IMG/VR virus record: IMGVR_UViG_3300020205_000565 | Location: 1 to 64,000 of that record | Source: a virus | Strand: one strand, 5' to 3' | DNA: 64,000 nt | Shown: positions 5,501 through 21,938 of the stretch, piece by piece | Layout of the letters: each line of letters starts with the position of its first letter | Position numbering within the stretch: the stretch's first letter is position 1 | Notes under the pieces: generated by a model | Database searches by the model: none | Seen by the model: only the letters and a program-made list of their open reading frames with translations | What the model was told of the DNA's origin: nothing | Program-made: the position numbers and the translations under genes

Positions 5501-8268
5501 GGTAGTCGAGAAGTAATACTTTTTATCTCATCAAGAATTTCTTTTTGCTTTTCGTAAAAAGAATCTTTGATTTTGATTCTAGTATTCTGCATAATCCATT
5601 TCTCACGTAGACGATTGAATTGAGGGCTACCCTTTTCAAATTTTCTGTCAATAAGAAACTGCTCGTGGGCAGCTAAAGAATTAATAAACAAATCAGGTAA
5701 TAACTCCTCTTTATATAGCTCACGAGATACATTTCTAAATTCTCTTAAGCGTTCTGCTACTTCAAGATCAGCTACTCTTTTTAATTCACCACTAGGTAAG
5801 TAGTTAGAATGTAATTGACGATACTCTCTCCATAGCATATCTAATTCCTCAGTAGCATCCAATCTTTCCATAGTGGTTTGATTAGACATACCCGTTGTGA
5901 TATTCTGAATCTTTGCAAGTACTTCATTTCTTGCGGCTTCTGCTCTAGCTCCTACCTCATCATTCTCCCCTTTACGAAAAACTTCATGACGAGCATAGTA
6001 CTCTTTAGTAAACTCGGTGTGGAAGTATTCTCTTTCAAACTTTTGTTTTGCTAACTTAAGTTTTAATACTTCATCTGTGTTACCACTTGCTACAGCTTGT
6101 TCTTCGGCTAGGCGAATTTCATTTCGCATTCTATCTAAGTCCTCTCTGTATCCTTTAAAAGGATTAAGTAAGGTGTTAACATCTTTGCTTTCGTATATAC
6201 CAGTCTCTTTATTTTTACCACCTTTCTTATCTAAGAAGGTAGCTCTTCTACCGAATGCTGCGGGATTAGATTGGTTATAGCCGGCCGCTTCTAGTAAAGG
6301 CTTTACTTCAGTTAGGAATGCATTACCTTTCTGTTGAGCAGAAGTAAATACATCTGTCATCTTGTTTTTAACAAACGTTGCAAAACCAAATACTACAGGA
6401 TCCTGGTTATATATAAACCCTTCTAAGAAAGAGTTCAAAGCATGAGCATCTCCTAGACGACCCAGCATTAAGTATTCAATCTTTTCTGGAGTTAAGTAAG
6501 CTCCTTCTTTATAGCTTATAGTTTTAAGTCTTTCGTATACTTCTTTCTCGGAAGTAGAAAGAGCTTCTCCCTTATCTACTCTTTCTTTTAATCTTAGGAA
6601 ATTTCTTAGAGCATCTCCGCTAAGCCCCCAATAATCTTTTTGACGTAATTCAACTATAGTAGGAGATGCTCCTCTCTTTTTTAAATCGGTAATAAGATCA
6701 TTATATCTCTGGTCGATTCTTTCCTGCATTGGTGCTAACGTCTCTTTAATAAGAGAAGATGTTCCTGCAAAATATACCTTACTTGTAAGATTACGCGCAG
6801 TCTTAATCTCGCTATCAAGGGAGCCTAATAGTTCGTAGATAGGGTTACCGGTAGTGATTTCTCCAGCAACTTTGGCATCATCTAATTTCTGCTGGAAGTC
6901 ACCTAAGAAATTCTCCCAATAGTTTATAATGTTATTATAGTAGAATACTTTAGCTACGTTTCCTTGAGAGTCGGTATCTTTTACTAAACGAACAAGCTCC
7001 GTATTTAAACGGCGAATCATATACTTAGTACGCAGTAAGCTATTTATAAATGCTTCAGTATGCTTTCTTGCAAATTCAACATCTCTTTTTAGCTTACTCA
7101 TTTCGTTAGTAAGAGTAGCCGAGATGTCTTGGTAAGGTGCTAGGTTTTTGTAGATCTCATCTAAGTCAGACTTATCAAATGCATCTTTTAATAATTGCTT
7201 CATCCCCTCATAGTCCTTATTGTTCTCCAATAGATTAATTTGTTTCTTAATCATTGTAAAGAATAAGTTCGTACTTCTCTGAAGATCATTATCATTAAAT
7301 GCTTTTAATGCATTTACGTAATCCGTTACTTCGCTTGTATAAGCAGCCACATCTTCTTGGCTTACTCCTTCTAGGTTTATGTCAAACTGTTCCAGTACTA
7401 ACATGTTACCTAGATCGGCCAGTGTTGTATTCTGATCTAAGTTTTCTACTTTAACTTTTTCTACGGTCTCACCAAATACTTTTCTTAGTATCTGACGTAA
7501 TGCAAAAAGGAAGTTCTTAATAAACTTATTAAATGCTGAATCCTTATTAGCTACAGCCTGGTCTGTCAATGACATTACCAATGCTTCTTCCAATATAATA
7601 GGATCATTCTCAGTTAGTGTAGGGTACTGATCTTTAGCTAGTTGTAATAAAGTTTGTCCTGCCGCAGTACTTGTAAGTTCTGTAGCAAGTTTATTAAACA
7701 ATGTAGGATTGCTTATTCGTATAGCTCTTATAAGAGGGTGAGCAAATTCGTGAAGAACTGTTTTCTCTGTTACCAATTCAGGTATCATATAAACAGTTCC
7801 TCCTAGGAAGAATGCGGGTTGACCTTTCCACTGGTTAACATTCTTTGTTAGCTCGGCCGCTTCTTGCGGTGTAATAAACTGATAAGGTACATTAAGATTA
7901 GAGCTAAGGTTCATAGCTAAAACGCTTACTGTAGCTGCAGCTTTTAGATTAGACTGAGATTGTGTATCAAGTTGTATAGGATTCTTTAGGACCTGATACT
8001 CCGGGAATGCATTCATTACATCTCCGAAACCAGCATATAGATCTGGCATAATTGCTTGTCTTCCTTCAGTATTCCATACATCCATATTATCCATTAGAGT
8101 TTTAAACTCCTCATTAGTAGGTACAGCAGGTTCTGCTCCAATAGGAAGATTTTTATTCTTCTGCATGAAAGCCCGAAGAACTTCCGTAGAAGCTCTTGGA
8201 CCTAAGCCTATCTGCTTAGCGTATGCTGTTAGTTCGTCTAATGAATTCGGTAATGGACAAGCGCTCAT
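2515..8268 (-). CDS. Giant virion protein with gluzincin-like domain (1,917 residues)
   Basis: The N-terminal part contains a zincin motif HEFAH at residues 173-177. About 50 residues later comes PIILEEALVM, with Glu227/228 as a possible third zinc ligand, the pattern of gluzincin metallopeptidases. The middle (about residues 300-1,100) is long, charged and helical. The C-terminal third has a hydrophobic helix near residue 1,730 (YVVAFTMAISMLFGF). The gene starts 11 bases after the stop of the RNA-polymerase gene and precedes the lysis cassette. In crAss-like phages a second large polymerase-associated virion protein follows the RNA-polymerase gene. This gene holds that position, but no polymerase motif is visible. 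A role as ejected cargo is inferred. Confidence 0.65.
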   Translation of the reverse strand: MSACPLPNSLDELTAYAKQIGLGPRASTEVLRAFMQKNKNLPIGAEPAVPTNEEFKTLMDNMDVWNTEGRQAIMPDLYAGFGDVMNAFPEYQVLKNPIQLDTQSQSNLKAAATVSVLAMNLSSNLNVPYQFITPQEAAELTKNVNQWKGQPAFFLGGTVYMIPELVTEKTVLHEFAHPLIRAIRISNPTLFNKLATELTSTAAGQTLLQLAKDQYPTLTENDPIILEEALVMSLTDQAVANKDSAFNKFIKNFLFALRQILRKVFGETVEKVKVENLDQNTTLADLGNMLVLEQFDINLEGVSQEDVAAYTSEVTDYVNALKAFNDNDLQRSTNLFFTMIKKQINLLENNKDYEGMKQLLKDAFDKSDLDEIYKNLAPYQDISATLTNEMSKLKRDVEFARKHTEAFINSLLRTKYMIRRLNTELVRLVKDTDSQGNVAKVFYYNNIINYWENFLGDFQQKLDDAKVAGEITTGNPIYELLGSLDSEIKTARNLTSKVYFAGTSSLIKETLAPMQERIDQRYNDLITDLKKRGASPTIVELRQKDYWGLSGDALRNFLRLKERVDKGEALSTSEKEVYERLKTISYKEGAYLTPEKIEYLMLGRLGDAHALNSFLEGFIYNQDPVVFGFATFVKNKMTDVFTSAQQKGNAFLTEVKPLLEAAGYNQSNPAAFGRRATFLDKKGGKNKETGIYESKDVNTLLNPFKGYREDLDRMRNEIRLAEEQAVASGNTDEVLKLKLAKQKFEREYFHTEFTKEYYARHEVFRKGENDEVGARAEAARNEVLAKIQNITTGMSNQTTMERLDATEELDMLWREYRQLHSNYLPSGELKRVADLEVAERLREFRNVSRELYKEELLPDLFINSLAAHEQFLIDRKFEKGSPQFNRLREKWIMQNTRIKIKDSFYEKQKEILDEIKSITSRLPKDSTVEADISTLYEKLSQLMSPYRDDDMQPEATAMDIRNIAEIKRTEQLLELAKKNIAKASGLTANEHEILSNYFARLKNGEDVTPAERMDANDLLIKKSKNELNTADKKRLYELWEDLAELQTSIPTDYYVDTINNLMSYVDLEEMQERFKFKDIDKTNAHQILNEDFLNFLDEQSEEVAEWFRTNHIMSRARDKEGNEYMKIQRVKSWSVTRPKSAEYLETHEFKNSDGEPEVLPSIPNMTYYERIVKDQYVNKEVTMLEALEMGDPTLANKDNKGNWLPKLDAPDDRYVNQQYFDVAKNDKALHAAIIALSKWHLQFQEGNPDPSKLYLDVPRFLRSGYESKMNMFTVEGKVENPVSSWWKRVKAFWSGGEGDDYDRGYNFTTQQDMIKGDMFDDQFAGVPINGLSDIQANEVSLDLTYGIMRYMISAEKQRALIAMNPMARALQTVLADPANVVRQVKGISKDMLDNFSLTGMFEKGTKLVSKGEKSVRQKAIDNFVEREFEGKLNKGVIGQDSDNMWVHKMADQIMGASAFGYFAMDIPSALKNSFGLRIQSLIESAGGKYFNHASYAQGTAFSNKVSWEISLEIYKFGPKSHNTQLVEIFDAYQGRFQDKFVEHGSRSVTKDALGGLSWMTSFRKWTELNSTLSIFGAMMHHEKSVTQTINGVTKKIAYIDAWETVDGQIRLKEGIDPEWGIGGSKFKAFKNRVQGVVNNLAGSFAKFDYAEADRYVAFRFAIAFKRWFLRMFMNRLQHRGSIRKGTVRARYDAAVGDTALGFHLEALSAFGRIIKTRGEYANFLSDTEKSAMLKTIMDVAYVVAFTMAISMLFGFDDKDPRKFAKLRERSGPLPFLGVSDNEDPFNMSGWLTNHALYMTMQLKNESMQWLPIPGYGADNYIDMLSMESVSMNNTWDNYKKIIVGLTQHAGHNLFGTDDSKAYFDQRQGPYSWMQKEGENWYAGSKVLTYFFRSIGLSGKTLSPDMAITNWVKGQNWR

Positions 8269-8279
8269 CTTTAATTATT

Positions 8280-11200
8280 TTAACATTTTTTATTTTGCTC
8301 AATGATCTCATCATCTGTAATAGGCTGTCCTTCTTGGACAACAGCTCTTCCTTGAGGAAGTAATAAGTAATGAGGATTGATGTACCCAAAGTTACGATAT
8401 AATTGTTCTGATAGATACAAGAATGTTTGCGGCGCAGTCCCTTTTAAAGTAGGTCTGCTAATAGTCGGAGCATTCTCTACGTATCCGATCATGTACTGAC
8501 CGTAACCAAAGTCGTCAAATACTAAGTACTTCTGGGGACCAGGTTCAGCAAGATATTCTTTAATATCTTTAATCGCTTCGTCGATCATCTCTTTATTATT
8601 ATCTAAAGTTTCATCGGTTAATGCATCAGACATATTAATTTTATCTGAACCTACCTTGGTAGGGGAAGGTCCAACCTTAGTAGAAAGACCAAAACCATTA
8701 TCACCTAATGCTCTCCATACGCTATTTGTTCCAGCAGTATTTCCTTTTAGATTTAAGAAGTCATTAAATATCATTAAAGCATTCGGGTAATCCTGTCTAA
8801 TGATTCGAGCAGTCTCTTCAGTAAGAACTCCTTTTCCAGCAGTACCAGAAACTTTATCTAAAGCATATCTAAAAGTTCTAAGTCCTGTAACATTATCTTC
8901 TAGGATAGACAGAAGCTTTGAGGATGCAATATCTTCCTCGGTCTTATAGAGTTTACCAGTTTCAGATGGTACTAATGTTTTATTATCGAAATCATTATTA
9001 AAGTCTATAGAAGGTGTTACTCCTTCTGCTTTATTTGTAAAGGCATAGGCAATATTTGTAGCTCTAGAAAGCGCAACATACTTCATTTGATTTCTTTCTT
9101 CGGCGTCCTTAGAAATATCAATAGTGTCTAGATCTACGAATATGTTTGTATAAGTAGAACCTTGAGACTTGTGAATAGTATGAGCATATCCATAGTCAAG
9201 AGTTTTCTTTAGGACTGTTCTAAGTTTACCTGTTTTAGGATCAACCTTATCTCCTTGTACTTTTCTATTTAAAGCGAAGGAGTTCATAAAATCGTACCAG
9301 TGTTTAAACAAAGAACGGTTTTTATTACCGAGTGCTGCTAATGCCTCACTTTGGCGACCTAGTTCTTTAAACTGCTCCTCACTATTACTGTTATCAAGTA
9401 TGAATACTTCTACCGGTTTAATTTTAGAATCGGATATATCCTGAAGAGTAATATTATATCCTGACATTACCATTGGTTGTAAATTTAAACCAGCATCTCT
9501 TAATGCTTTTTCTCCAACGTTTTTACTTTCAACATATTCAACATTAGTTACTACATAATCGACAGAGTTATTAATTGAATAAACACCTTGTCTATTTTTA
9601 TTATAGTTATCATACCCCATTAAGATTTCTCCTACAACGTATGGTTCAGAATAACCAAGACCTTTACGTATAACTTCATTAAGTATAGTAACTCTTTCAT
9701 TAGTATAGGTTATTGCTCTAACAAAGTTTCTATTGGTTTTAAAACTATCTGATTGAAAAGCTTTTACCACATCTTTAGCAAATTGCTTCCCTGAATCAGT
9801 AAATACTATTCCTTGATTACCAATAATTTCTGACTTGTATCCAAATGTTGGAAATTCAGACTTCATGTTATTACGAATAGAATCCAAGATTGGTCCTAAA
9901 GGATTATCTCCGGCCTGACGTTCAACTTGAGTAAGCTCAGACTTATTAGTTACCTCTTTAAATACAGGAGAATTTTCTTTTTCTAGCGTTACAGTATTAC
10001 CATCTTCTTCTGAAACAGGTTTAAGCTGTGCGGGGTCACCGATAAATATTACTTGTTGTTGATTCTTTTCAGCTCTTTGTTTTATAAAGTCAAATAAGTC
10101 TGGTCCAATAAAAGATGACTCGTCTATAATAAGAACGTCAGTAGGAAATGCTCCATCAGCAACAATGCTCATATTAAGTTTTTCTAGATCAACTTGCGTT
10201 GGATCTATATTAGGAGCTAGCGCTAAAACATTATGAATTGTTTTAGTCTGTCTACTAATAGCATTGGATAACACTCCTTTAGCTTTATGAGTAGTAGCAG
10301 TAACATCGTTACTGATGTTTCTTTTTCTTAGATATTCAAGTAAGATTTTAGTAATACTTGTTTTACCCGTACCAGCATATCCCATAAGGGTATACATGTT
10401 ATCGGTAATATCTTTAGATGTTGTATCAAAGCCCTTGCTTATAAATTCTGCAATGTTATTAAGAGCTTCTACCTGCTGATCGTTTGGTGTAAAGGATATA
10501 CCTAACTGTGTTAAGTTAATGGGTATACCTCCTACCATAACGTTTCTAGCTTCAGCTTCTTCAGCAGCTCTCTCTGCTTCAGCAGCAGCTTCAATAGATC
10601 TTTGAAGAGCCTCTGGATCTAGATTGTATATTACATTTTCAGGTATGTTACCCTCGGCATCTGCTATTTTTGCAAGTAGCGGATTAGTAGCCCAGTTTTT
10701 AATTTTCTTACTTAGATAGTTACTTCTTAAGTACTGACTAGTAACGAATGTATTCTGGTAATCTCTGAGCACTTGCTCTATCTCATCATATTTTAGTTCC
10801 TCTGTAAACTCCTTATATGGTTTTTCAAATAGGGCCATAGACATTTCTGTCGGTACTGCACGAACCATAGAGAATGTACTTCTTGTATCTGTACCAGACT
10901 GTAGTATAGAGAACAAACCAAACTTTTGGAATAGGTTAGATATTCTCTCGTTCTCTACAGGATCTGTTGACTTGATAACACTAGGATTTGCTAAGTCTTG
11001 TAAGTTGTTATGGTAGATGTTTAGATCATCTGCCGTATACAAAGTATTAGCAAACTTTAAGTTAGTAAGAGTAGTAGTTGTATAAGGTTTAGTTACCGCT
11101 TCTAGGTTTGAGAGTACTGAATACTTTTCAAACAAGTCCGGGTTACTTTCTTTAAGCTGCATGATCTGACGACCATACGCCTTCTCCCCATAGAATAAAT

Positions 11201-14200
11201 GACCATGAAGATTTAGATTACCTAATGCTTTATCTCTAAGTACAGACTCATAAGCTTTATACTCAGGTGTGTATTTCTCATCAGCCTGGTTCTTATAGTG
11301 AGCTAGATATTTTTTATAGTCAGGAGTGGTACTGATATTCTCTTTAGAATTCTCAGGATAGCTTCTTAATACTTCTCTCTCGAATACGAACTTGGTAAAC
11401 AATTGTTTACCTGTTACAGGATCGTACATATCAAATACAATGTTATCTACCGGCGCAGCAAACTGCCATGCGCTTTGTTTACTGTATTGCTTAGTAGCAA
11501 ATAAACTATTGATCTGATTTCTATCTACGTATAAGGTACCTTCTTTTACTCTAGCAGCAGCTTTTAAATTCTTTACATCTTCTATCTCAACTTCTACATC
11601 CTTACCTTGGTATGACTTAGTAGCGGGATTGAACTTATAATAAGATCTTTGGAATAAGAAACTCATAAGATCGTTTCTCAACGTTCTCTGTAATGTTTCG
11701 TCATCCATACCTGTAGCTTTTTTAATACCGAATGAAAGATTCTTACCGTCTCCTTGTCTACGGAATATATTCTGAACCATGTTATTTACCTGTTCGCTAT
11801 CACGTAGAGGAAACAAATTATGATATCTGTCGATAATAAAGTCTTGAATCTTAAATGCACTGATAGGCGACTCTTCTGAGATCCTTCTGATTGACTCTGC
11901 ACTAATACCATTTGTAAGATTATCCATTTTCTCTAGCTTCATACGAGCATCAAGCAGTGTGCTAGTCTTATCGTTATCAAACTTAAGAGCCTGTGTAAGC
12001 TGTGTAATCTGACCGGCCATTTCTTGAATCATAATAAACTGAGAGAATACAGCTCTATCTAATTCGTTGTAACCTTCTCCTTCTTTTTTCTTAAGATTCT
12101 TTTTAAGCTCTTCTTTTGAATAATCCTCAAGCTTAGGAGCAGACTCATTTAATAGTTCCCAGATAAGAGTCTTATCATAAATAGGATTGTCTCCACGTAG
12201 TCTCTTATTTAAATATTTTGAAGGATCATTTGTAAAGCCGTTCTCTTTATTAAACAGTATTTCATTACGAGCTTCTATTCTGTGGAATAATCCTACATCC
12301 TCCTGACCAATAGGTACAGCAAACTTACTCTTAAGTAAGCGTTGTTTGCCTAAGAATTCCTTGATGATCGGTTGCGATACAAAATAGATTGCTTGGTCAA
12401 TAGGTACACCGGCCTGAATCATAAATAACAATGAAGGTATAACCTCCTTGTTACCTTGAATATCAAAGATCCATGCATCTTTTGCAACGTCTACCGCTCC
12501 ATTAATCATTTGGTTAATGATATCAGCAACACGATTACTTAAGTCAGCAGAGTAAGCAGATGATAAAGATATATTACCGTCAATATTATTATGCGGTAAG
12601 TATAAAGTTTGGTCTGCATATACCTCAGTACCATCCTCCTTATAGGTAAGGATACGATCTTTGCTCATTACTAATCCAGTACGTGCAAACAAAGTATTAA
12701 ATGTATTTGCTACTGCAATTATACCAAGTACCGCTTTACCAATACTATTAGACTGATGCTTATATAAGTTACGGCCTAGCTCAAATATTTCTGTTGGTGA
12801 GCGCTTACCTCCAGGAGCTTCTCCTCTATCTATGAAAGCCATGTCATTAGCAATACCTTTAAGGATGTCAATACCGTTAGGAGTAATAAGTTTAATTCTA
12901 TTCTCCTGCATTGAAAGAATACCTACGCTGTCTTTAATCAAAGCGTTTTCTATACCCTTAACTGATTTTCTACTCTTGTCTAGTTTAACAGTGATCTCTT
13001 CCTCTGATAGATTATCTACTAATTCTAAGATCATAACCTCTTCATCAGTGAATGCTTCTTCGTTATCTAGGTCAGCATACTTTTCTTCTAACTCGTTAAT
13101 CTCTTCTCTAGTTACATCGCGGCCGAACTCTTCGCTAATAGCTTTGATACTCTTATCAGAAATCTTTTTATACTTAGCTGAAATGTTAGGCATCATTGTA
13201 AACATCTTATCGATGTCAAAGTCACCACCTGATTTAGCTACAATCTCTGCTGGAAGAATTACAATGTTACCTGCTTCTTCTGGTAAGAATTCAAATACCT
13301 CCATGAATTCCATAGAGTTAAGACCCTGTACTGGAATACGTGCAGCTACTAGTGTAACAAATGATCTGTTTTTATCTACAGGTTCTATTTCAGAAACTCC
13401 TGTAAAGTTTTTAGCACCGCCTGCTAAGTAAGCTTGGTATTGAGCTTCTGCGTCCTCTACTTTATCTACAACTATAATGTCCAGGTTTGCTCCGTCCTTT
13501 GACTTAACTGTATCATGAGTATAGTAGTCTCCAAGAATTTTAATTCCGTGATACTCTCCACCTTTAACACGTTCTCCATCTTTAGTGTTAGGAGTAAGCT
13601 GAGACATTAATTCAGGGGTCAACTCTGATTTAAGCACAAACAGTTTAGTGTCGCCTTTAGTATTATCTAGTTTAGCAAAAGCTTTACTGTATATTTCCTG
13701 GTTAGGATTAATTGGTTTATCTAACCAGTTTTCATCTTTAATTAATCTATTAAGAGCTTGAATAGGAGTGATACCAGTCTTAGCTAATGCTAATACATCA
13801 GGATGATATAATAATTTTTTGAATCCGCCTTGAAGAGCAATCTTAATCTTCATTGCTGCAGTAGAGCCATCCGCTTTCTTACGGTAGAATGTTAATCCAT
13901 TGGTACCATAGTTCTGAATCTCTTCTTCTGTAGCGTTACGCATATCGTTATTAGCGTTTTCAAATCCTACTCCAGATACTTGAACTAATGTTTCTCCAGT
14001 AATCTTTTGGTTGATCAAACGCTTTTGTATAACGGCAACTAAAAGCTTCTCTATCTTATCAGCAGAAAAGGATAGGTCTAAGCTTTGCTTAGGTTCTTTA
14101 GTAATACCATCATAATCTATAAAGTCAATCTCGTGATCCGATAAGTCTTGTCTTGTAAGTTCTTTCTTAACAAAGTCAAGAAGGCTCTTCATGTCAGATC

Positions 14201-17200
14201 CAATTTCTTTTACAAGCTTGTCTTTCTTAAGTTGAACTAACGCTTCTAGGTTAGCCTCATATCTTATAAGTCTCTTGTAGTTTTTAGATGACATCTTCTC
14301 TTCCTTAGAAGCAGCTTCCCAAGCTTGTATTCTTTCCCATGGATCAGCAAAGTCAAATGTTTTCCAGTCTGTTGGAACTCCATTCTCCATTAAGCCATCC
14401 TCAATAAGTTTACGAAGCTGCGTAGAGAAAGTAACCTTCTCGTTAAAGTGGTCGTGTACTTCCAACTGATCTTTAAAGTAATCCATAAAGATTTCGTTAG
14501 GCGTAAATTCAAAGCCCTCCTCGTTAATAGCTAATGTCTTATTAGTATTACTCTTAGAGTCATTATAGAATTTATCAACAGTACCATTTTTAGTCAGGCT
14601 GTTAATCTTGGAACCTGACTTTAATAATGCATAGTCAATTCCTTTCTCTAACATTTTTGCTTGAAGCTGATCTAAGTTCTTACCCTTAATTATATTAGGG
14701 ATAAGAGGCATCAAAGAGAACTTATGGAATCCCAGTACTGGTAGACCCTCTGTCTTAAGTGCTCCCCAGTATTGCATTTTTTTAACAGGGAAGAATTTAA
14801 GAACATCTTCTGTAACTTCTTCTCCCTTAACAATCTTATTATAAATAGATTCTTGTACAGGGCTCCATTTTTTTAGTGACATAAGTAACGCGCGGTATGC
14901 ATCAAAGTTTATCCAACCTTGTCCATCACCTTCTGTCATTCCAGCATATTCGCTGAATCGTTTTGTTATAGCAGCTATAGTTTGAGCAATCTGTTCCTTT
15001 GAAGCTTTAAGTTTTGTAAGACGATCTGTCTCAAACTCTATTGCCTCTTTTAAATACTCCTCGTAATATACCGATTGAGTTTTAGCATCTTGCATTACTG
15101 CAGATGTCATAGTCTTACCAAACTTCTTTGGTTTAAACCCAAGTCTTGCCGCCTCACTGCTAGCTGCAAGTTTAGCATTAATATACTCTTGCATGTATAT
15201 ATCAGTACGTGGGATTCCTCCAGTAGCTCCGAGACCGGAATTACGTTTGAAGAAGTCAGCCTCGTCTTTAAATAAAGCAGGATCTCCGTAGAATACTAAA
15301 GTAGTCTCAAGTGTATGTACCCAGCTGTTTGCTACATAAGCTTCAGCCATGTCTTTTAACAACTGTTCTCTACGTTCAGTAGTAAGAGCTTGTGGAGATC
15401 TAACCCCCATCTTGTTTAATACTTGATCAGCCAACTGAGGATTATTATAAAATCCCATATCAGCTAATGACTGCTCAAACTCTTCTACCTGACCTGATAA
15501 ATAGTTTCCTATCTGTTGTTCAATAGAATTTTTTAACTCTACTCTCTTAGGATCATTAAGATACTTTTCGAGATCTTCTTTTGTAAGAACAGGTTCCGAT
15601 AAAGAGGAAGTACGAGCTTTCTTTATTTTAGTTTTCGTTGTCTCATCTAAGATCTTATCAAAGATTACAAACTCTGATCCTGCTTCTGCATAGGTTTTAT
15701 CTCCTACGGTAGCTAGACCTGCGGGATCTCCATCTTTAAGTTTCTGAATACGTTCGTACTCTGCGCCTAGATGTTCAAATAAGTCTTTAGTAAATTGTAT
15801 TCTACCCGCAGATGGCGCCTCAGAATTAGATCTTTGTGTAAAGGATGCAAGATCAATTAAATGCTTTAATGCTTTACCTTTTGGATCAGTAGCAATTAAT
15901 CTATATAGGTATGTAGTAGATTTATCAGAATGACGAGTAGCCTCTGATACTCCGTACAACATCATCATATAGAAGTCTTGTAAAATCTTTGTGGTCTCAT
16001 CAGCATTTGATGAAGCAATACCGCTTTCATTTACCAGACCTTTAACGTTAGTTATTTCTACAGAAGTACCTGACATATTTAACAGCTCGATCTGAGCTCT
16101 TACTACATCACCGTAACTTGATTCGTATACAATCTTTTTTCCATTCTCATCAAATAATCTTCTCATGATCTTTGATGCCTTCATAAAAGGATTACGAGAC
16201 GTAGATAAGTGATTCATACTTAAGTCATCTGCATTACTAACGCCTTCTTGTGTAAGATCGGTTAGTGTCTCAGCGGCATTAATATTATCCACCATGTTCA
16301 TTAACGTACCACGTAGAGATTTCTCGTATTGGTTTTCTCCTTCAGCATTAGATACGGTAGTATCAGAGAAGTCATCTGACCAAGTAAGGTGGAAGTTCTG
16401 TATAGTATTATACTTAATAGATACACCACTAAGCTTATTACTTACTTTAAAGTCATCAATAGCAACTTTATATTCTTTAACTATATCACTAGGCTTTCTG
16501 ATTATAATCGGATTTGCTCCAGCATACTTATTATTATACGGATAGATACCATATAGTATAGTCGTATGTACATCATAGATAGCCTTAAACGTAGGATTGT
16601 TTTTATTGGATAGAGCTTTACGTACGGTAGCGTTATTTTCTAACGGCATACCTATGGCCTCCATAAATTCAAATACAGTATTTAAGTTGTTTATAGATAA
16701 GGTACGATTAAAGTTTTCTGCAACAGCCTGGATATTTAGCGTATTAACGTTATCTGCTCCTACTGTAATGTATTTACCTGGAGCTGCTACAGCAAAGTGG
16801 TTATCCCATTTGGCACCAACCTTACTGTATTCACCACCTGCTCTAGTAGGAGTAACTTTAAATGTAGTTACCTTTTCTTTAATAGGTTTGTTACCCTCCA
16901 TTAAAACTTCTCCCGTCTCTGGATCTACAGCCTCTATCATCTGTGTAGAGAAAGAAGCACGTAATGCCATAAGCGGGATACGCTTCATAGTAAGGATAGC
17001 AGTAATCTCTGTCCACAACTCTTGAGAGCTAGTCTCCATGTTAGATGGTAGTCCTACCTTAGCAAGGAATTGTCCAATAGCCGGGTAATCTACCGCAGCC
17101 TCAGCAAGTCTATTATAAACATCTTGGATATTTCTAGATCCGTCTGTAATGTTATAGATACGATTCCATGCAGCATTAGGATCCATAAGTTGAGGGAAGC

Positions 17201-20200
17201 CTAGTCTGTTCTCTCTAACTGTACCGTCAGGCTTGTAGGCATATAGACCACGAATAGTGTATAGAAGAATAGAAGATGCTTTCTCCTTACCTGACATCTC
17301 GTTACCAGATTTAGATTCGAACTCGTTCTTGATAGCTAATTTACTATCATCGACCTTATCCATCTCCGTCAGCTGTCGGTCATCGAACTCCATAAACTTA
17401 CTAGTCTCCATGTGGTACTTCATCACCCCTGTTGGCTTAAGAACCTCATCGGGCTTACCAAAGTGTTTTACCGCATAGGCTAGTGTATCTAGTTCATAGT
17501 CTATATCTTGTGTATCTAGTCCTTTAGCTTCCATGTCAGCTCTATCTAGATATACGTTCTCTAACTGTTTAGTCAGTTCTTGTAATACGTATTTGTATAC
17601 TGTAATCCGTCCTTTTACTGTACGGATAGCAGCAGTAGTAAATACATTAGTCTTACCTCCGTTTAGTTTAGATATCGCCTCAACGAATAATGAATCTACA
17701 GTAGACCCTATTAATTGAGATGTCTCATAGTCTAGTTTAGATTTGCCGATTTTATCCTGTGGAGTAGTTGTAGTTACTACCTTATTCAAAGTAGTAAATA
17801 CTCTATTAGCCTGGTCAAATGTAAACTGGTTTAGATCTCCTACTCTTAGTTTCTCGTACAGCTCGTTAGTATAGCTGTTATTGTTACCATTAGTAATAAC
17901 GTCATCAGCATTAGTCTTACCGAACAATGACTTTAAGAATTCAAATATCTTTTGGAAGATGTTCTTCTTAACAGGAGTCTTGTCTAGTACTTTCTTTCCT
18001 TTGCCGAGCATATACTCGCGGAAGTCTTCTGCTAAGTATTCTTCTAGCTGTTCTTCCGTAGCCTCTTTAAAAGTTACAGTACTTCCGTCAAATGCCACAA
18101 ACGATCCTTTGTTGGATCTTGTCTCGTCATATAGTTTCTCTCTTTCTACACTAGTCAAGAACATCTGTGTAAAGCCATGCCATGCTTCGTGGTATAGATC
18201 AGAGTAATCCGATCCTTTAAACAGTGTAATACCGTTTACATCCCAGCGAGCAATACCGTTTTTAGTAGCAGTATTGATAGCATTGAACATTACCTTAAAT
18301 GGTATATGTTCCTTAAGCGGACTGTTCTCGTACCAGGTTTTAGCTAAGGCAATCTGTTCTCTAGTTGCTTTAAGATTACCCTGAATACCTAACTTGTTCT
18401 TACCGTTCTTATTGATGAAGTCATCATCGTTCATCAAGTCATCTAATGCGCTGCTATCAGCACTTGATCTTCCCCTACGGAATATCTGTTGAGCCTCTAT
18501 CTTCTGTACAACCTCTTCTGCTTTTTGCTCTACTGGCGTAATATCAGTAGGAGTTTTAGTTCCCTCTAAAATAGATAGTTCTGTATCATAGTTTACGGAT
18601 TTACCTAATTGATAATAGAACGGACTCTGTATAAGAAATGAATCAACAACATCTTTTAATTCTGATTCACTTATATTACTCTTATCTAACTTACCTATTT
18701 CTTTTAGCGTACGATCAATGAGACTTAAAGTCATATCATCTTTACCTACTGGTGTATACACAGTAGATGCTTTTTTAAGTACGGCCTCAATTGTATTAAT
18801 TGTAGAAAGTGGAGTACCCTTAGCAAGAAGTTCTTTAAATGCCTTACGAATATTCTTTCCTCTAACACCTATAAGTGCAGTAATACCACGAAAGTCAACT
18901 TGCAGCTCGCCTGCTGCTACAGCTTCTTGTCTCTCCGCTCTTTGTTTTATTAAACTTTCATCATTTTTTGTTGCACCTTCTATTTGAGATTTAAATGCCT
19001 TAACTGCCTCAGATCCTGGTAGATTAACTTCTTTTGCAGCTTTAGGAGCTTGCTTAGTCTTGCCAAAAGTTTTTTCGTATACTTTACGTATAGCTCTTGA
19101 AGCAGCCTCCTCTTTTTCTTTTCCCTTATATTTTCCAGTATCTGTGGTAGTACCCCACTTAGTTACTTTACCACTAGCGTCTTTTTCTAATGGCATAGGG
19201 TATGATTCAATATCTCTTGATCCTACGCCTGCAAAGTTCTTAGTAAGGGTTGGAACTTCAGTATTTGTAAATTTAGTTCCGTCCCATTTTGTCCAGCTCT
19301 CACTTGTAATATCCCAAACATAAACAGGTTTGTTTAACTTAATACCGAGTTGTACTGCCGTATTAGTTCCGCCTGTTACAGCATCTCCTTTTTTATTTAA
19401 AGTAGCAACCGCAAATACAGAATCTGAATTAGCAACTTGGTAGTAGTTTCTTACTTGTAAGTTTCCTTCAGTAGTGTTTGGATATCTTTTACCTAATAAC
19501 TTTTCTACCTCATCTCTTGCAGCTTCCATTTGTTCTTCTGTAAGAACAGTAGCTTGCACACCGGCAGCTTTAAGTTGTTTAGATAAGGTAGTATTAGCTT
19601 TTTCTCTATAGTGTCTATGTTGTATAACACCGAATTCTCTACCAACTAAATCCCAAAAAGTATCTCCGCCGTATGCTCCTCCAGAATGATTAACAAACTC
19701 TTCTGGTTTATTTTCTGTAGTAGGTTTAGTTTCTTTTAAAGCAGCTAGTTCTGCATTGTATTTAGAATCTAACCATTCTTCAGCAGCCTTGTATGGATCA
19801 GGATATTCATTGATATCAAATGATTTTTGTTCTCCGTGATTCTTAATTATATACGAGTCCTGTGCAATTGGCTTTACTGCGTCTAACTCATTATAATTAA
19901 AAGGTCTTACATAAGTAACAGTAACAGCAGTTACTTGATCTGTTTCATTATCTACCCTCTCTCGTAAGCTAATTAAATTTTTTCTTCTTTCTATATCAGC
20001 TACTCTAGGATCTGTAGGTTTAGTTCCTTGTAAACGGCTAATTATTATATCATACTTATCATAAATAACTTTATAGATACCATATAAAACACCTGGCATG
20101 TTACCCTGCTTTTCACCATAGGTATCAGGATAGTCATCTATATTAGGTATTGCTTTACGAAGATCTATTTGTTCTTGCGCTCTAAGCTTAGTTACTTTTT

Positions 20201-21938
20201 CATCGTTAGTTTCTTCAATCTCTTCCTCTATATTTTCCTCATCTAGTAATACCTTGTCGCCATTGCTAGGATCAATAAGTAGAGTAAAGTATGGGTTATA
20301 TCTTTTAAGTTCCCCATCTTCGTCTAACTCCACATTCATGTTTGTGTTCTGCTCCAAGTAAGTCATGTAAGGAACAGAGTCTATATTGAATGTACCATTA
20401 GGATTTCTAGAAAACACTGTAACATTTTTGTTGCTGTTAGCAAGTGGTAATGCTATAATACTCTTTCTATTAAATCCGTCAGGTTGTTTTAAGAAGACAC
20501 TCTTTAAAGTTTCGGCTGCGTCGCTTGCTGAAAGCATGAGGGGTTGACCCTCTAACTTAACATATATTGCTCCGCTACTTTTATCTAGACCATACTGGAT
20601 ATCTTTAACTGAGTTAAGTATGTATGTAGCAAGTATGTCAACCTTCTCTTTGTTGCTTAGAGGTTGGCCGTCAGTTTTATTAACGGATTTCGTTAACATT
20701 TCTGCTAGGTTTGTTGCAACTTCTTCTGATATATTTTTAGGCGCTACTAATACAGGGTACTTGGATAAAGCTGGAGTAACGTATACTCCTGAAAAAGCTC
20801 CCGGCTTTAATTTATCCTTACTATAGAAAGCAAAGCTTAACGGTTCATTTTTAAAAATTCTAGTTTGAAACGGAACCATTTCAGGATTCTTATCTACTAT
20901 AGCACCGTAGCTTCCTCCAGCAATAGAATACATGATGCTATTACCTTCTCTTGCTTTAATGTAATCATAAGCTTTCGCTAGTTGCTCAAATCCACCTCTT
21001 AGGTATTCTCTTGCTTCTTCAAGAGACATTCCTAAGTTCTTAGCTACCTCTGCAGCAGTTTGGGTATTGTTAACGTTATCTACATCGAATAACTTGTTAG
21101 GCCCTCTCTTAGGTAAGAATCGAGTATTGTAATAAGCTAAAGTTCCATTTTTGGTAACTTCTGCCTTATCGTTAAATCGAAGCTCGTTACCATTTTTGTC
21201 AACTAATACGTAGACAAAAGCATTATTATAGTCTTCGATTATATAGTCTTGATCAACACCAGATTCAATAACTTCTTTTACATTAGGGAAGGTATCGTTA
21301 ATAGCGATTTTATTATATCGCATCATCTTAACAAAGATTCCTCCAACTACTCCAGGGTATTCAGTTCCTTTTGCTAATATAGCTTTAGTAATTGTGCTAT
21401 ATATTTTCATTCTAGGATCTCTTGGTGAGCCGGGCTTACCAGATAATATCTCCTGCATACTTGTTGACACAGGATCAAATGGTTTTCTTGTCTCCTGATA
21501 GATCGTAGAATTAGCAGCATTTTTTTTTGCTACGTATTCTTGCTGTTGTTCTTTCTCAAGATCTTCTTTTACTTCAGCAAGGTTCTTAGCTGGATTAACA
21601 GTAACGCCTAAGTAATCTACTACGACTTGGAAACCTTTCTTATCGTCTCCTGCTAGTCTAGCTGTCTTATATAATTCAGCAATATCTAATCCTTGCTCAG
21701 GTAAGTTCTCAAGAGTACTATCTACTCCTAAAAGCTGTTTGATGAAAGGAAGGGATACTCTAGCATAGTCCAAAGCTAAGTTCTGGTTCTGCGTTGCAGT
21801 ATTAACTTGATTGTAGAGACCAGATAGATAATCTTTGAGATCAAAGTTATTCTTGTTATCTACATAAGTCAAAAGATCCTTCGCGATTTTAGTACGAAGG
21901 ATCCTTAATTGTTTATTACTTAGGGTACAGTTAATCAT
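8280..21938 (-). CDS. Giant fusion: SLOG-like domain, zincin, crAss-type virion RNA polymerase, SF1 helicase (4,552 residues)
   Basis: Domains in order: (1) residues about 750-960, a YspA/SLOG-like Rossmann module (NHSGGAYGGDTFWD, GGTNTAVQLGI, NFAGVGSRDIE); (2) a zincin motif HEAWH at 1250-1254; (3) an RNA polymerase with SGGDFDIDKMF, Asp2906, Asp2908 and Asp2910 being the metal-binding triad known from crAss-like phage gp66 and related double-psi-barrel polymerases, preceded by RIPVQGLNS; (4) an SF1 helicase with Walker A GYAGTGKT (Lys3859), Walker B LIIDESS, GDPAQLKPV, then HKSQGSTY and YVALSRA near 4250-4290. crAss gp66 is about 2,200 residues, so this protein is roughly twice as long. It is coupled to the upstream gene by TAATG. 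It probably enters the cell with the DNA to transcribe early genes. The polymerase and helicase calls are strong; virion location is inferred. Confidence 0.88.
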   Translation of the reverse strand: MINCTLSNKQLRILRTKIAKDLLTYVDNKNNFDLKDYLSGLYNQVNTATQNQNLALDYARVSLPFIKQLLGVDSTLENLPEQGLDIAELYKTARLAGDDKKGFQVVVDYLGVTVNPAKNLAEVKEDLEKEQQQEYVAKKNAANSTIYQETRKPFDPVSTSMQEILSGKPGSPRDPRMKIYSTITKAILAKGTEYPGVVGGIFVKMMRYNKIAINDTFPNVKEVIESGVDQDYIIEDYNNAFVYVLVDKNGNELRFNDKAEVTKNGTLAYYNTRFLPKRGPNKLFDVDNVNNTQTAAEVAKNLGMSLEEAREYLRGGFEQLAKAYDYIKAREGNSIMYSIAGGSYGAIVDKNPEMVPFQTRIFKNEPLSFAFYSKDKLKPGAFSGVYVTPALSKYPVLVAPKNISEEVATNLAEMLTKSVNKTDGQPLSNKEKVDILATYILNSVKDIQYGLDKSSGAIYVKLEGQPLMLSASDAAETLKSVFLKQPDGFNRKSIIALPLANSNKNVTVFSRNPNGTFNIDSVPYMTYLEQNTNMNVELDEDGELKRYNPYFTLLIDPSNGDKVLLDEENIEEEIEETNDEKVTKLRAQEQIDLRKAIPNIDDYPDTYGEKQGNMPGVLYGIYKVIYDKYDIIISRLQGTKPTDPRVADIERRKNLISLRERVDNETDQVTAVTVTYVRPFNYNELDAVKPIAQDSYIIKNHGEQKSFDINEYPDPYKAAEEWLDSKYNAELAALKETKPTTENKPEEFVNHSGGAYGGDTFWDLVGREFGVIQHRHYREKANTTLSKQLKAAGVQATVLTEEQMEAARDEVEKLLGKRYPNTTEGNLQVRNYYQVANSDSVFAVATLNKKGDAVTGGTNTAVQLGIKLNKPVYVWDITSESWTKWDGTKFTNTEVPTLTKNFAGVGSRDIESYPMPLEKDASGKVTKWGTTTDTGKYKGKEKEEAASRAIRKVYEKTFGKTKQAPKAAKEVNLPGSEAVKAFKSQIEGATKNDESLIKQRAERQEAVAAGELQVDFRGITALIGVRGKNIRKAFKELLAKGTPLSTINTIEAVLKKASTVYTPVGKDDMTLSLIDRTLKEIGKLDKSNISESELKDVVDSFLIQSPFYYQLGKSVNYDTELSILEGTKTPTDITPVEQKAEEVVQKIEAQQIFRRGRSSADSSALDDLMNDDDFINKNGKNKLGIQGNLKATREQIALAKTWYENSPLKEHIPFKVMFNAINTATKNGIARWDVNGITLFKGSDYSDLYHEAWHGFTQMFLTSVEREKLYDETRSNKGSFVAFDGSTVTFKEATEEQLEEYLAEDFREYMLGKGKKVLDKTPVKKNIFQKIFEFLKSLFGKTNADDVITNGNNNSYTNELYEKLRVGDLNQFTFDQANRVFTTLNKVVTTTTPQDKIGKSKLDYETSQLIGSTVDSLFVEAISKLNGGKTNVFTTAAIRTVKGRITVYKYVLQELTKQLENVYLDRADMEAKGLDTQDIDYELDTLAYAVKHFGKPDEVLKPTGVMKYHMETSKFMEFDDRQLTEMDKVDDSKLAIKNEFESKSGNEMSGKEKASSILLYTIRGLYAYKPDGTVRENRLGFPQLMDPNAAWNRIYNITDGSRNIQDVYNRLAEAAVDYPAIGQFLAKVGLPSNMETSSQELWTEITAILTMKRIPLMALRASFSTQMIEAVDPETGEVLMEGNKPIKEKVTTFKVTPTRAGGEYSKVGAKWDNHFAVAAPGKYITVGADNVNTLNIQAVAENFNRTLSINNLNTVFEFMEAIGMPLENNATVRKALSNKNNPTFKAIYDVHTTILYGIYPYNNKYAGANPIIIRKPSDIVKEYKVAIDDFKVSNKLSGVSIKYNTIQNFHLTWSDDFSDTTVSNAEGENQYEKSLRGTLMNMVDNINAAETLTDLTQEGVSNADDLSMNHLSTSRNPFMKASKIMRRLFDENGKKIVYESSYGDVVRAQIELLNMSGTSVEITNVKGLVNESGIASSNADETTKILQDFYMMMLYGVSEATRHSDKSTTYLYRLIATDPKGKALKHLIDLASFTQRSNSEAPSAGRIQFTKDLFEHLGAEYERIQKLKDGDPAGLATVGDKTYAEAGSEFVIFDKILDETTKTKIKKARTSSLSEPVLTKEDLEKYLNDPKRVELKNSIEQQIGNYLSGQVEEFEQSLADMGFYNNPQLADQVLNKMGVRSPQALTTERREQLLKDMAEAYVANSWVHTLETTLVFYGDPALFKDEADFFKRNSGLGATGGIPRTDIYMQEYINAKLAASSEAARLGFKPKKFGKTMTSAVMQDAKTQSVYYEEYLKEAIEFETDRLTKLKASKEQIAQTIAAITKRFSEYAGMTEGDGQGWINFDAYRALLMSLKKWSPVQESIYNKIVKGEEVTEDVLKFFPVKKMQYWGALKTEGLPVLGFHKFSLMPLIPNIIKGKNLDQLQAKMLEKGIDYALLKSGSKINSLTKNGTVDKFYNDSKSNTNKTLAINEEGFEFTPNEIFMDYFKDQLEVHDHFNEKVTFSTQLRKLIEDGLMENGVPTDWKTFDFADPWERIQAWEAASKEEKMSSKNYKRLIRYEANLEALVQLKKDKLVKEIGSDMKSLLDFVKKELTRQDLSDHEIDFIDYDGITKEPKQSLDLSFSADKIEKLLVAVIQKRLINQKITGETLVQVSGVGFENANNDMRNATEEEIQNYGTNGLTFYRKKADGSTAAMKIKIALQGGFKKLLYHPDVLALAKTGITPIQALNRLIKDENWLDKPINPNQEIYSKAFAKLDNTKGDTKLFVLKSELTPELMSQLTPNTKDGERVKGGEYHGIKILGDYYTHDTVKSKDGANLDIIVVDKVEDAEAQYQAYLAGGAKNFTGVSEIEPVDKNRSFVTLVAARIPVQGLNSMEFMEVFEFLPEEAGNIVILPAEIVAKSGGDFDIDKMFTMMPNISAKYKKISDKSIKAISEEFGRDVTREEINELEEKYADLDNEEAFTDEEVMILELVDNLSEEEITVKLDKSRKSVKGIENALIKDSVGILSMQENRIKLITPNGIDILKGIANDMAFIDRGEAPGGKRSPTEIFELGRNLYKHQSNSIGKAVLGIIAVANTFNTLFARTGLVMSKDRILTYKEDGTEVYADQTLYLPHNNIDGNISLSSAYSADLSNRVADIINQMINGAVDVAKDAWIFDIQGNKEVIPSLLFMIQAGVPIDQAIYFVSQPIIKEFLGKQRLLKSKFAVPIGQEDVGLFHRIEARNEILFNKENGFTNDPSKYLNKRLRGDNPIYDKTLIWELLNESAPKLEDYSKEELKKNLKKKEGEGYNELDRAVFSQFIMIQEMAGQITQLTQALKFDNDKTSTLLDARMKLEKMDNLTNGISAESIRRISEESPISAFKIQDFIIDRYHNLFPLRDSEQVNNMVQNIFRRQGDGKNLSFGIKKATGMDDETLQRTLRNDLMSFLFQRSYYKFNPATKSYQGKDVEVEIEDVKNLKAAARVKEGTLYVDRNQINSLFATKQYSKQSAWQFAAPVDNIVFDMYDPVTGKQLFTKFVFEREVLRSYPENSKENISTTPDYKKYLAHYKNQADEKYTPEYKAYESVLRDKALGNLNLHGHLFYGEKAYGRQIMQLKESNPDLFEKYSVLSNLEAVTKPYTTTTLTNLKFANTLYTADDLNIYHNNLQDLANPSVIKSTDPVENERISNLFQKFGLFSILQSGTDTRSTFSMVRAVPTEMSMALFEKPYKEFTEELKYDEIEQVLRDYQNTFVTSQYLRSNYLSKKIKNWATNPLLAKIADAEGNIPENVIYNLDPEALQRSIEAAAEAERAAEEAEARNVMVGGIPINLTQLGISFTPNDQQVEALNNIAEFISKGFDTTSKDITDNMYTLMGYAGTGKTSITKILLEYLRKRNISNDVTATTHKAKGVLSNAISRQTKTIHNVLALAPNIDPTQVDLEKLNMSIVADGAFPTDVLIIDESSFIGPDLFDFIKQRAEKNQQQVIFIGDPAQLKPVSEEDGNTVTLEKENSPVFKEVTNKSELTQVERQAGDNPLGPILDSIRNNMKSEFPTFGYKSEIIGNQGIVFTDSGKQFAKDVVKAFQSDSFKTNRNFVRAITYTNERVTILNEVIRKGLGYSEPYVVGEILMGYDNYNKNRQGVYSINNSVDYVVTNVEYVESKNVGEKALRDAGLNLQPMVMSGYNITLQDISDSKIKPVEVFILDNSNSEEQFKELGRQSEALAALGNKNRSLFKHWYDFMNSFALNRKVQGDKVDPKTGKLRTVLKKTLDYGYAHTIHKSQGSTYTNIFVDLDTIDISKDAEERNQMKYVALSRATNIAYAFTNKAEGVTPSIDFNNDFDNKTLVPSETGKLYKTEEDIASSKLLSILEDNVTGLRTFRYALDKVSGTAGKGVLTEETARIIRQDYPNALMIFNDFLNLKGNTAGTNSVWRALGDNGFGLSTKVGPSPTKVGSDKINMSDALTDETLDNNKEMIDEAIKDIKEYLAEPGPQKYLVFDDFGYGQYMIGYVENAPTISRPTLKGTAPQTFLYLSEQLYRNFGYINPHYLLLPQGRAVVQEGQPITDDEIIEQNKKC

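Follow-up and report, generated by a model that had tools for sequence, protein, structure and literature searches.

The window analysed here is a stretch of 64,000 nucleotides of viral DNA (positions 1 to 64,000 of the IMG/VR virus record IMGVR_UViG_3300020205_000565), and its subject is one giant gene, a single uninterrupted frame on the minus strand (8280..21938) that starts with ATG and encodes a protein of 4,552 amino acids (aa) and 512 kDa. A preliminary description, made from the sequence alone and silent about the strand, had read four motifs in this one frame, and all of them are found where it had placed them, each once in the protein: SGGAYGGDT at residue 752, HEAWH at 1250, DFDID at 2906, and GYAGTGKT at 3853. 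In 2,000 shuffles of the protein, HE..H turns up in 43, the Walker A pattern G..G.GK[ST] in 18, and SGGA.GGD in 1, which makes these three improbable as chance products. D.D.D turns up in 1,404 of them, with 1.25 occurrences expected per shuffle; DFDID alone is within chance, and the polymerase call must therefore rest on homology.

Layout of the giant gene

When the window protein is aligned with nine relatives, constant blocks (residues 1-590, about 1138-2740, 2857-3711, and 4343-4552) stand apart from two variable stretches, residues 640-1130 (slot A) and 3712-4342 (slot B). The features are the following.

8280..21938, minus strand: the 4,552-aa giant protein, in which an RNA polymerase of the virion type forms the chassis, joined by a SLOG domain, an HExxH (zincin-like) domain, and a superfamily 1 (SF1) helicase
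20169..21938, minus strand: conserved N-terminal region, residues 1-590 (family alignment)
18549..20021, minus strand: variable slot A, residues 640-1130, holding the SLOG domain; in relatives AlkB-like, DUF7831, possibly ART, or nothing recognised
19287..19700, minus strand: SLOG/DprA-like domain, residues 747-884, with SGGAYGGDT at 752 (PHROG 768)
17904..18491, minus strand: zincin-like domain, residues 1150-1345, with HEAWH at 1250-1254
10806..17903, minus strand: RNA polymerase region, residues 1346-3711
11799..15341, minus strand: modelled catalytic core, residues 2200-3380, matching phi14:2 gp66 (6vr4)
13209..13223, minus strand: catalytic DFDID, residues 2906-2910
13368..13706, minus strand: insertion of about 110 residues, 2745-2857, directly before the DFDID part (alignment and model)
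8913..10805, minus strand: variable slot B, residues 3712-4342, holding the helicase
8994..10541, minus strand: SF1 Dda-like helicase, residues 3800-4315
8283..8912, minus strand: conserved C-terminal region, residues 4343-4552, retained where the helicase is missing

Relatives were collected in three scans of IMG/VR, the last of which took the best 80 of at least 500 relatives. The scans gave 133 polymerase loci including the window, many of them the same contig fetched repeatedly; clustering at 95% identity across the DFDID part reduced them to 86 clusters, the window again included. The open reading frame (ORF) is uncut by a contig end in 64 clusters, and 63 of these are single frames of 3,107-4,904 codons (measured from stop to stop in the relatives), which argues that the giant frame is not an assembly artefact; the exception, from locus L123, is a 1,277-codon half of a frame that is broken there. 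An artefact of assembly or gene calling might be suspected from this break and from L008, where the helicase frame is interrupted near position 15800, possibly by a sequencing error, and is intact in the close relative L009. The same long frames, however, recur in independent contigs and in named genomes, and the ratio of nonsynonymous to synonymous substitution (dN/dS) between the window and L002 stays under 1 for all parts measured (polymerase 0.12, HExxH domain 0.17, helicase 0.20, SLOG 0.33, whole slot A 0.51; at most 0.33 outside slot A); such an artefact is barely credible.

The polymerase

The polymerase region is a crAss-type RNA polymerase of the family of Cellulophaga phage phi14:2 gp66, as established by sequence, profile, and fold. 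The crAss-type enzyme is a single-chain virion RNA polymerase with two barrels, the structure of which has been solved. A sequence search of PDB returned the phi14:2 virion RNA polymerase (6vr4_A) at E 4.6e-24, aligning window residues 2863-3217, through DFDID, with residues 1332-1690 of the chain, and 2329-2463 with 967-1098, and a profile of 32 relatives matched gp66 with a probability of 100 (E 2.7e-41, 883 columns). An AlphaFold model of residues 2200-3380 reached a predicted local distance difference test (pLDDT) of 81.5 and a predicted template modelling score (pTM) of 0.80. With this model, 6vr4_A was the top PDB match both in Foldseek (E 2.6e-33) and in VIA (Z 26.0, root-mean-square deviation 2.8 over 824 residues), where the next match was QDE-1, an RNA-interference polymerase, at Z 12.4. 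The preliminary description had itself named a structural comparison of the DFDID region with double-psi-barrel polymerases as its test, and the predicted model of this region does match one. D[FY]D[IV]D is kept in 86 of 86 clusters.

Two local peculiarities of the region were observed. The insertion at residues 2745-2857 occurs in the window, L002, L003, and L004, is absent from L006, L007, L009, L010, L012, and L013, and mostly has pLDDT below 50 in the core model. In cr108_1 (L017 8128-17031 and 17322-19718), the polymerase gene is broken directly after the first Asp of DFDID; 290 bases separate the two annotated genes, as an intron would, and the break in the matches falls between residues 2906 and 2907 of the window protein.

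The helicase of slot B

Residues 3800-4315 are an SF1 Dda-like helicase, for which ATP-driven unwinding is predicted. They match PHROG 325 (Dda-like helicase; E 6.5e-79), Pfam AAA_30 (E 7e-20), and, in the PDB sequence search, T4 Dda (E 1.5e-12), and they carry motifs I, II, III, V, and VI (Walker A GYAGTGKT at 3853-3860, DESS, GDPAQL, HKSQGST, and YVALSR). T4-type Dda (PDB 3upu) has the same SF1 motifs and is a stand-alone protein of about 440 aa, whereas the helicase of the window is one domain of a 512-kDa chain. Where present, the domain is under purifying selection, as judged from its dN/dS of 0.20.

The preliminary description saw in this combination a self-contained machine for entry and early transcription; its domains and polymerase family stand, and an obligate unit of helicase and polymerase is not supported. 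Of the 86 clusters, 16 carry the helicase, always in slot B; all 16 are among the 80 clusters whose contig reaches the C-terminal end. The remaining 70 have the polymerase core with no helicase match, 6 of them being cut before the slot ends. L010 and L012, which lie inside the helicase clade, have no slot B content and keep the C-terminal block, and the only helicase match elsewhere in L012 (124 kb) covers 45 positions at 17.9 bits. A split of the gene into two in L010 and L012 was considered and rejected, as the 3,340-aa protein shares the N-terminal start and the upstream 1,290-aa gene encodes another protein. Among 11 hand-picked helicase-less IMG/VR records, some of which are near-copies of each other and any of which may be incomplete, a separate strong Dda-like helicase is present in 2, a partial match below 20 bits in 2, and none in 7; with no strong stand-alone copy in 9 of the 11, this helicase seems dispensable for the polymerase.

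These distributions bear on the idea that helicase and polymerase work as one enzyme, kept together by the fusion, with the helicase either opening promoters or the template ahead of the polymerase or pulling the genome into the cell. The motif set of the window helicase, its place after the polymerase, and its low dN/dS agree with this, as do the fused helicases in several separate polymerase lineages and a search of 10 fused records (possibly incomplete), which returned no strong Dda-like helicase other than the fused one. The 70 clusters with a polymerase core and no helicase match speak against it, and so do L010 and L012, the AlkB-like, NADAR, and kinase-like domains that occupy the same slot in other clusters, and the disagreement between the trees described below; such coupling is not needed and leaves the other slot contents unexplained, and we regard it as unlikely.

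A stand-alone Dda-like helicase of 480-500 aa is present in seven records of Intestiviridae and Crevaviridae, and several of these have a uracil-DNA glycosylase or DNA polymerase gene close to it. It might thus be argued that an ordinary replication or recombination helicase was moved into a late, highly expressed gene, with no functional meaning, and is cut off after synthesis; in none of the 10 fused records was a strong separate copy found beside the fused one. The separate helicases of the seven crassviruses nevertheless form one starred clade without fused ones, beside which the long-branched fused helicase of L069 falls with weak support, and the records that lack a fused copy have, in 9 of 11 cases, no strong Dda-like helicase at all. 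As the AlkB-like, NADAR, and SLOG domains in the same slots are not replication genes either, a fusion of convenience appears very unlikely.

The SLOG domain

Residues 747-884 are a DprA-like SLOG domain, matching PHROG 768 (DprA-like) at E 1.5e-10 and Pfam cpYpsA only at E 0.1; the domain was also recovered by a profile built without it. Within the cluster set, SLOG occurs exclusively with the helicase (6 of 16 helicase clusters versus 0 of 64 others; Fisher p 2.7e-5, uncorrected for relatedness), in at least three arrangements: in slot A (the window and L082, the cluster to which L002 belongs), within slot B ahead of the helicase (L127, L128, and L152), and after it (L069). Such pairing would fit a functional kit. 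Beyond the cluster set, cr109_1 has SLOG with no helicase, and cr118_1 and cr50_1 have the helicase with no SLOG. An ATP-cone-like match near residues 1029-1112 (Z 5.4-6.0; Pfam E 0.059) was too weak to claim.

Slot contents and their turnover

The types of cassette were defined from Pfam and PHROG matches of seed members, and matches were counted from 50 bits upwards. Because the counting profiles took their seeds from the set being counted, the counts find relatives of domains named by Pfam or PHROG; slot A cpYpsA matches (22-48 bits, from one seed) and DUF7831 matches below 50 bits were excluded. In slot A, among 69 clusters with a complete N-terminus and HExxH domain, AlkB-like domains were counted in 2, SLOG in 2, DUF7831 in 1, and an ART-like domain, possibly a further cassette as judged by its matches, in 1. 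The window and L002 carry SLOG in this slot, L002 together with an AlkB-like oxygenase (PF13532 E 1.1e-6, below the curated cut-off); L055 has an AlkB-like domain (E 8.3e-8, above the cut-off), and L045 has DUF7831 (E 3.3e-37).

Slot B was found to hold the helicase in 16, AlkB-like domains in 8, NADAR in 5, DUF7831 in 4, SLOG in 4, kinase-like domains in 3, and cpYpsA-like domains in 2 of the 80 clusters with a C-terminal end, occurring alone or in tandem. The best E-values are 3.3e-19 for AlkB-like (L068 and L059 above the Pfam cut-off, L013, L053, and L054 below), 4.9e-13 for NADAR, 1.7e-36 for DUF7831, and 3.2e-19 for kinase-like AAA_33. Leave-one-out profiles recovered the AlkB-like, NADAR, DUF7831, and SLOG seeds at 15.5-187.9 bits over 17 seeds, the weakest being L059 (15.5 bits) and DUF7831 of L054 (22.3 bits).

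The contents of slot B turn over among close polymerases, and the helicase and polymerase trees disagree. Two polymerase trees were used, one of 37 rows, from which L057 was left out as a presumed copy of L070, and one of 86 rows, comprising 81 clusters and 5 named phages after five clusters with a cut core had been dropped. In the polymerase trees, L051 is sister to L013 (Shimodaira-Hasegawa-like approximate likelihood ratio test, SH-aLRT, 100), and slot B holds the helicase in L051 and an AlkB-like domain in L013. The L051 helicase groups with those of cr50_1 and L126-L150 (100/100), not with the window group, and forcing it into one clade with the window group was rejected by 94 log-likelihood units (approximately unbiased, AU, test p 1.5e-10, for a group chosen after a first tree had been viewed). 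The helicase of L054, which falls outside these groups, has its best phage matches in Dda-like helicases of proteobacterial phages; a second helicase tree was built without L054 and two proteobacterial-phage helicases. The helicase label requires 9 changes on the 86-row polymerase tree, at least 6 of them by starred branches. These changes may be gains, losses, or transfers, among which the trees cannot tell, and old duplicates followed by loss may also account for them.

The HExxH domain

The domain at residues 1150-1345 is zincin-like by its HEAWH site and a conserved EExLAE (E1299, E1300, and E1304) on the next long helix, and it may be regarded as a putative peptidase. A domain profile, built from rows having HExxH, matches 77 of 86 clusters, and the site is intact in 77 of 77; of the nine clusters with no match, eight lose their 5' part at the edge of the contig, and in L123, with its broken frame, the domain is in the other half. 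Comparison with N4 gp50, which belongs to an unrelated single-subunit type of polymerase, aligns at HELVH of gp50, weakly (prob 0.3), and an hhalign match of phi14:2 gp67 at the HExxH site is not significant (prob 0.4). The Pfam search over 29 alignment rows, the last being the SLOG piece of L002, gave 62 families at E 0.5; among the 25 commonest, the only peptidase names are Peptidase_C97 (2 rows, best 0.011) and Tox-MPTase2 (1 row, 0.0033).

In L071, a kinase-like AAA_33 domain (residues 826-976) follows directly on the HExxH domain, in neither of the two slots, possibly at a third insertion site.

A putative carrier of ready-made enzymes

We consider it probable that the giant protein is a single-chain virion RNA polymerase of the crAss type, from a Crassvirales-related lineage, that serves as a chassis with two slots for interchangeable enzymes. 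The N-terminal region, the zincin-like HExxH domain, the polymerase, and the C-terminal region would be its constant parts, with one slot before the HExxH domain and the other between the polymerase and the C-terminal region. By analogy, we infer that the protein is packed in the capsid, enters the cell with the DNA, and transcribes the early genes. The slot enzymes would thereby be delivered ready-made before any phage gene is expressed, as a payload acting on nucleic acid or ADP-ribose signals. The kit of the window would provide strand opening and recombination-type DNA binding; relatives would bring enzymes that repair ends, reverse alkylation, or remove ADP-ribose. Single-stranded or damaged DNA is the target of DprA-like proteins, Dda helicases, and AlkB, and ADP-ribose is that of NADAR, which suggests repair or counter-defence on incoming DNA. 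The HExxH domain would probably cut the chain at some stage and free its parts, a parallel to which has been proposed for polyvalent proteins (PMC5512222).

Several observations weigh against this reading. Near the window the helicase is stable, being kept by 8 of the 9 clusters in its clade; the fused copy is the only strong one in each of the 10 fused records and may therefore be in use throughout infection; and the pairing of SLOG with the helicase could also mean that the job of the helicase is tied to this polymerase. On the side of the cassettes, the ART-PolyVal matches of L013 and L055 lie below the Pfam cut-off, neither of the two retrieves the other, and the example of exchange leans on the AlkB-like domain of L013, which scores 27.4 bits against a Pfam cut-off of 31.2 but is found at 120.5 bits by a profile of the other AlkB-like members. 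No domain is recognised at 50 bits or more in slot B of 48 of the 80 clusters, from which it follows that a payload is not obligatory.

A further group of such observations concerns the HExxH domain, for which the preliminary description had claimed a zincin: the invariant site and the conserved Glu residues agree with it, but no zincin fold was recovered. For residues 745-1485, AlphaFold gave a poor model overall, with a mean pLDDT of 54.8, higher around the HExxH helices; with it, Foldseek returned nothing below E 0.6, and VIA had no zincin among the best 50 of 259 chains with Z of at least 2. The row of the window has no Pfam peptidase match above the cut-off. In phi14:2 gp67, no HExxH is present, and the site is therefore not needed in every relative. 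In crAss001, gp47 keeps the site (HEAFH) and is encoded separately from the polymerase, which weakens a pure self-processing role. A loss of HExxH once the gp67 and gp66 parts are separate, as phi14:2 would suggest, is contradicted by the same HEAFH and was rejected.

It is possible, although we advance it tentatively, that crAss-related phages use the virion polymerase-protease scaffold as a standard vehicle for lineage-specific kits, with repair or counter-defence functions arriving together with transcription and being released by the HExxH domain. If the relatives are carriers as well, the slots would amount to a direct list of the needs of such phages during the first minutes after infection, when no phage gene is yet expressed, and they would be a place to seek new counter-defence enzymes, notably in the 48 clusters with no recognised match in slot B.

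Known systems and named relatives

Phage phi14:2 offers a close parallel in fold and has a similar gene order: gp66 has the same polymerase fold and catalytic DFDID, with a gp65-like protein encoded directly behind. In contrast to the single chain of the giant, however, gp66 (2,180 aa) and gp67 (1,797 aa) are separate genes, and neither has a significant helicase or SLOG match or an HExxH. The phi14:2 proteins gp65-gp68 are annotated from virion proteomics by tandem mass spectrometry, and crAss001 virions contain gp47, gp49, and gp50 (PMC10172136).

The Suoliviridae phages cr118_1, cr50_1, cr109_1, cr10_1, and cr55_1 encode giants of the same kind, single chains 4,328-4,946 aa long in which both HExxH and DFD[IV]D are present. 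These five giants, all of which have the HExxH site, are about 17-20% identical to the window protein and have been deposited as 'DNA helicase', 'DprA-like', or 'hypothetical'. In cr118_1 (QOR58373.1, 4,946 aa) and cr50_1 (QOR58058.1, 4,774 aa), the polymerase, HExxH, and helicase are in one coding sequence named 'DNA helicase', and the polymerase-helicase fusion is therefore not unique to the phage of the window; at least two database entries named 'DNA helicase' are thus RNA polymerases with a helicase attached. SLOG lies on the C-terminal side in these giants, DprA-like in cr109_1 (with TAG read as glutamine) and cpYpsA in cr10_1, and a PHROG scan of the N-terminal 1,800-2,000 aa of the five proteins gave no match. 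By profiles, helicase and SLOG occur together in the window protein but in none of the five. In cr126_1 (Steigviridae), NADAR is found at residues 51-195 of the polymerase coding sequence (156.8 bits), annotated as DUF1768.

Polyvalent proteins are described by Iyer et al. 2017 (PMC5512222) as injected multidomain proteins that join zincin-like peptidases with varied nucleic-acid and nucleotide enzymes; N4-like virion polymerases are said there to be always fused to such peptidases, and processing by the peptidase and a jump-start of transcription are proposed. The giant shares with them disparate enzymes in one chain and a zincin-like domain (identified by its motif only), but the passages covered describe no crAss-type polymerase with fixed slots. 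In phage P23-45, an RNA polymerase of the cellular type is part of a giant virion protein of 5,002 residues and serves to transcribe the pre-early genes; this polymerase is fused to the tail tape measure, and the available part of the report does not mention exchangeable enzyme slots (PMC10770324). The polymerase, the idea of a fused peptidase, and giant virion polymerases are thus already known, and the new part is the fixed slots with exchangeable enzymes, of which no description was found in the open-licence literature as covered by titles, abstract starts, and passages.

The downstream protein and the virus

Directly downstream of the giant gene lies one further gene of the transcription block.

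2515..8268, minus strand: 1,917-aa protein, likely the counterpart of phi14:2 gp65 (RNA polymerase-associated)

This protein matches phi14:2 gp65 with an hhalign probability of 69 and the downstream protein of cr118_1 with 97.7. It has an HExxH of its own, HEFAH at residues 173-177, invariant in 8 of 8 aligned proteins, and gp65 has HEIMH at residue 245; the transcription block may thus encode two zincin-like sites.

The virus record of the window is 82 kb long and probably incomplete, because near relatives have records that reach 113-124 kb. A relation to Crassvirales is indicated by TerL, the top phage match of which is crassvirus cr55_1 (25.5% over 88%, E 1e-44), and the portal and the major capsid protein (MCP) match PHROG families. 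The MCP (L025 3138-4754, equal to record bases 66137-67753) is nearest to that of the Leptolyngbya cyanophage Lbo-JY46 (28.4% over 99%), followed by those of csAssE-Sib and the Cellulophaga phages phi17:2 and phi4:1; a search of Lbo-JY46 with the polymerase profile gave no match. A host search in genome contigs returned a single 3.5-kb contig in a Bifidobacterium bin of metagenome-assembled genomes, which is probably mis-binned, and no host is therefore assigned.

Two other genes of the window were observed in passing. That at 37727-46507 encodes a 2,926-aa protein with no Pfam match at E 0.01, and that at 57089-59905 encodes a 938-aa protein with a short (34-residue) von Willebrand A match (PF00092, E 1.1e-6).

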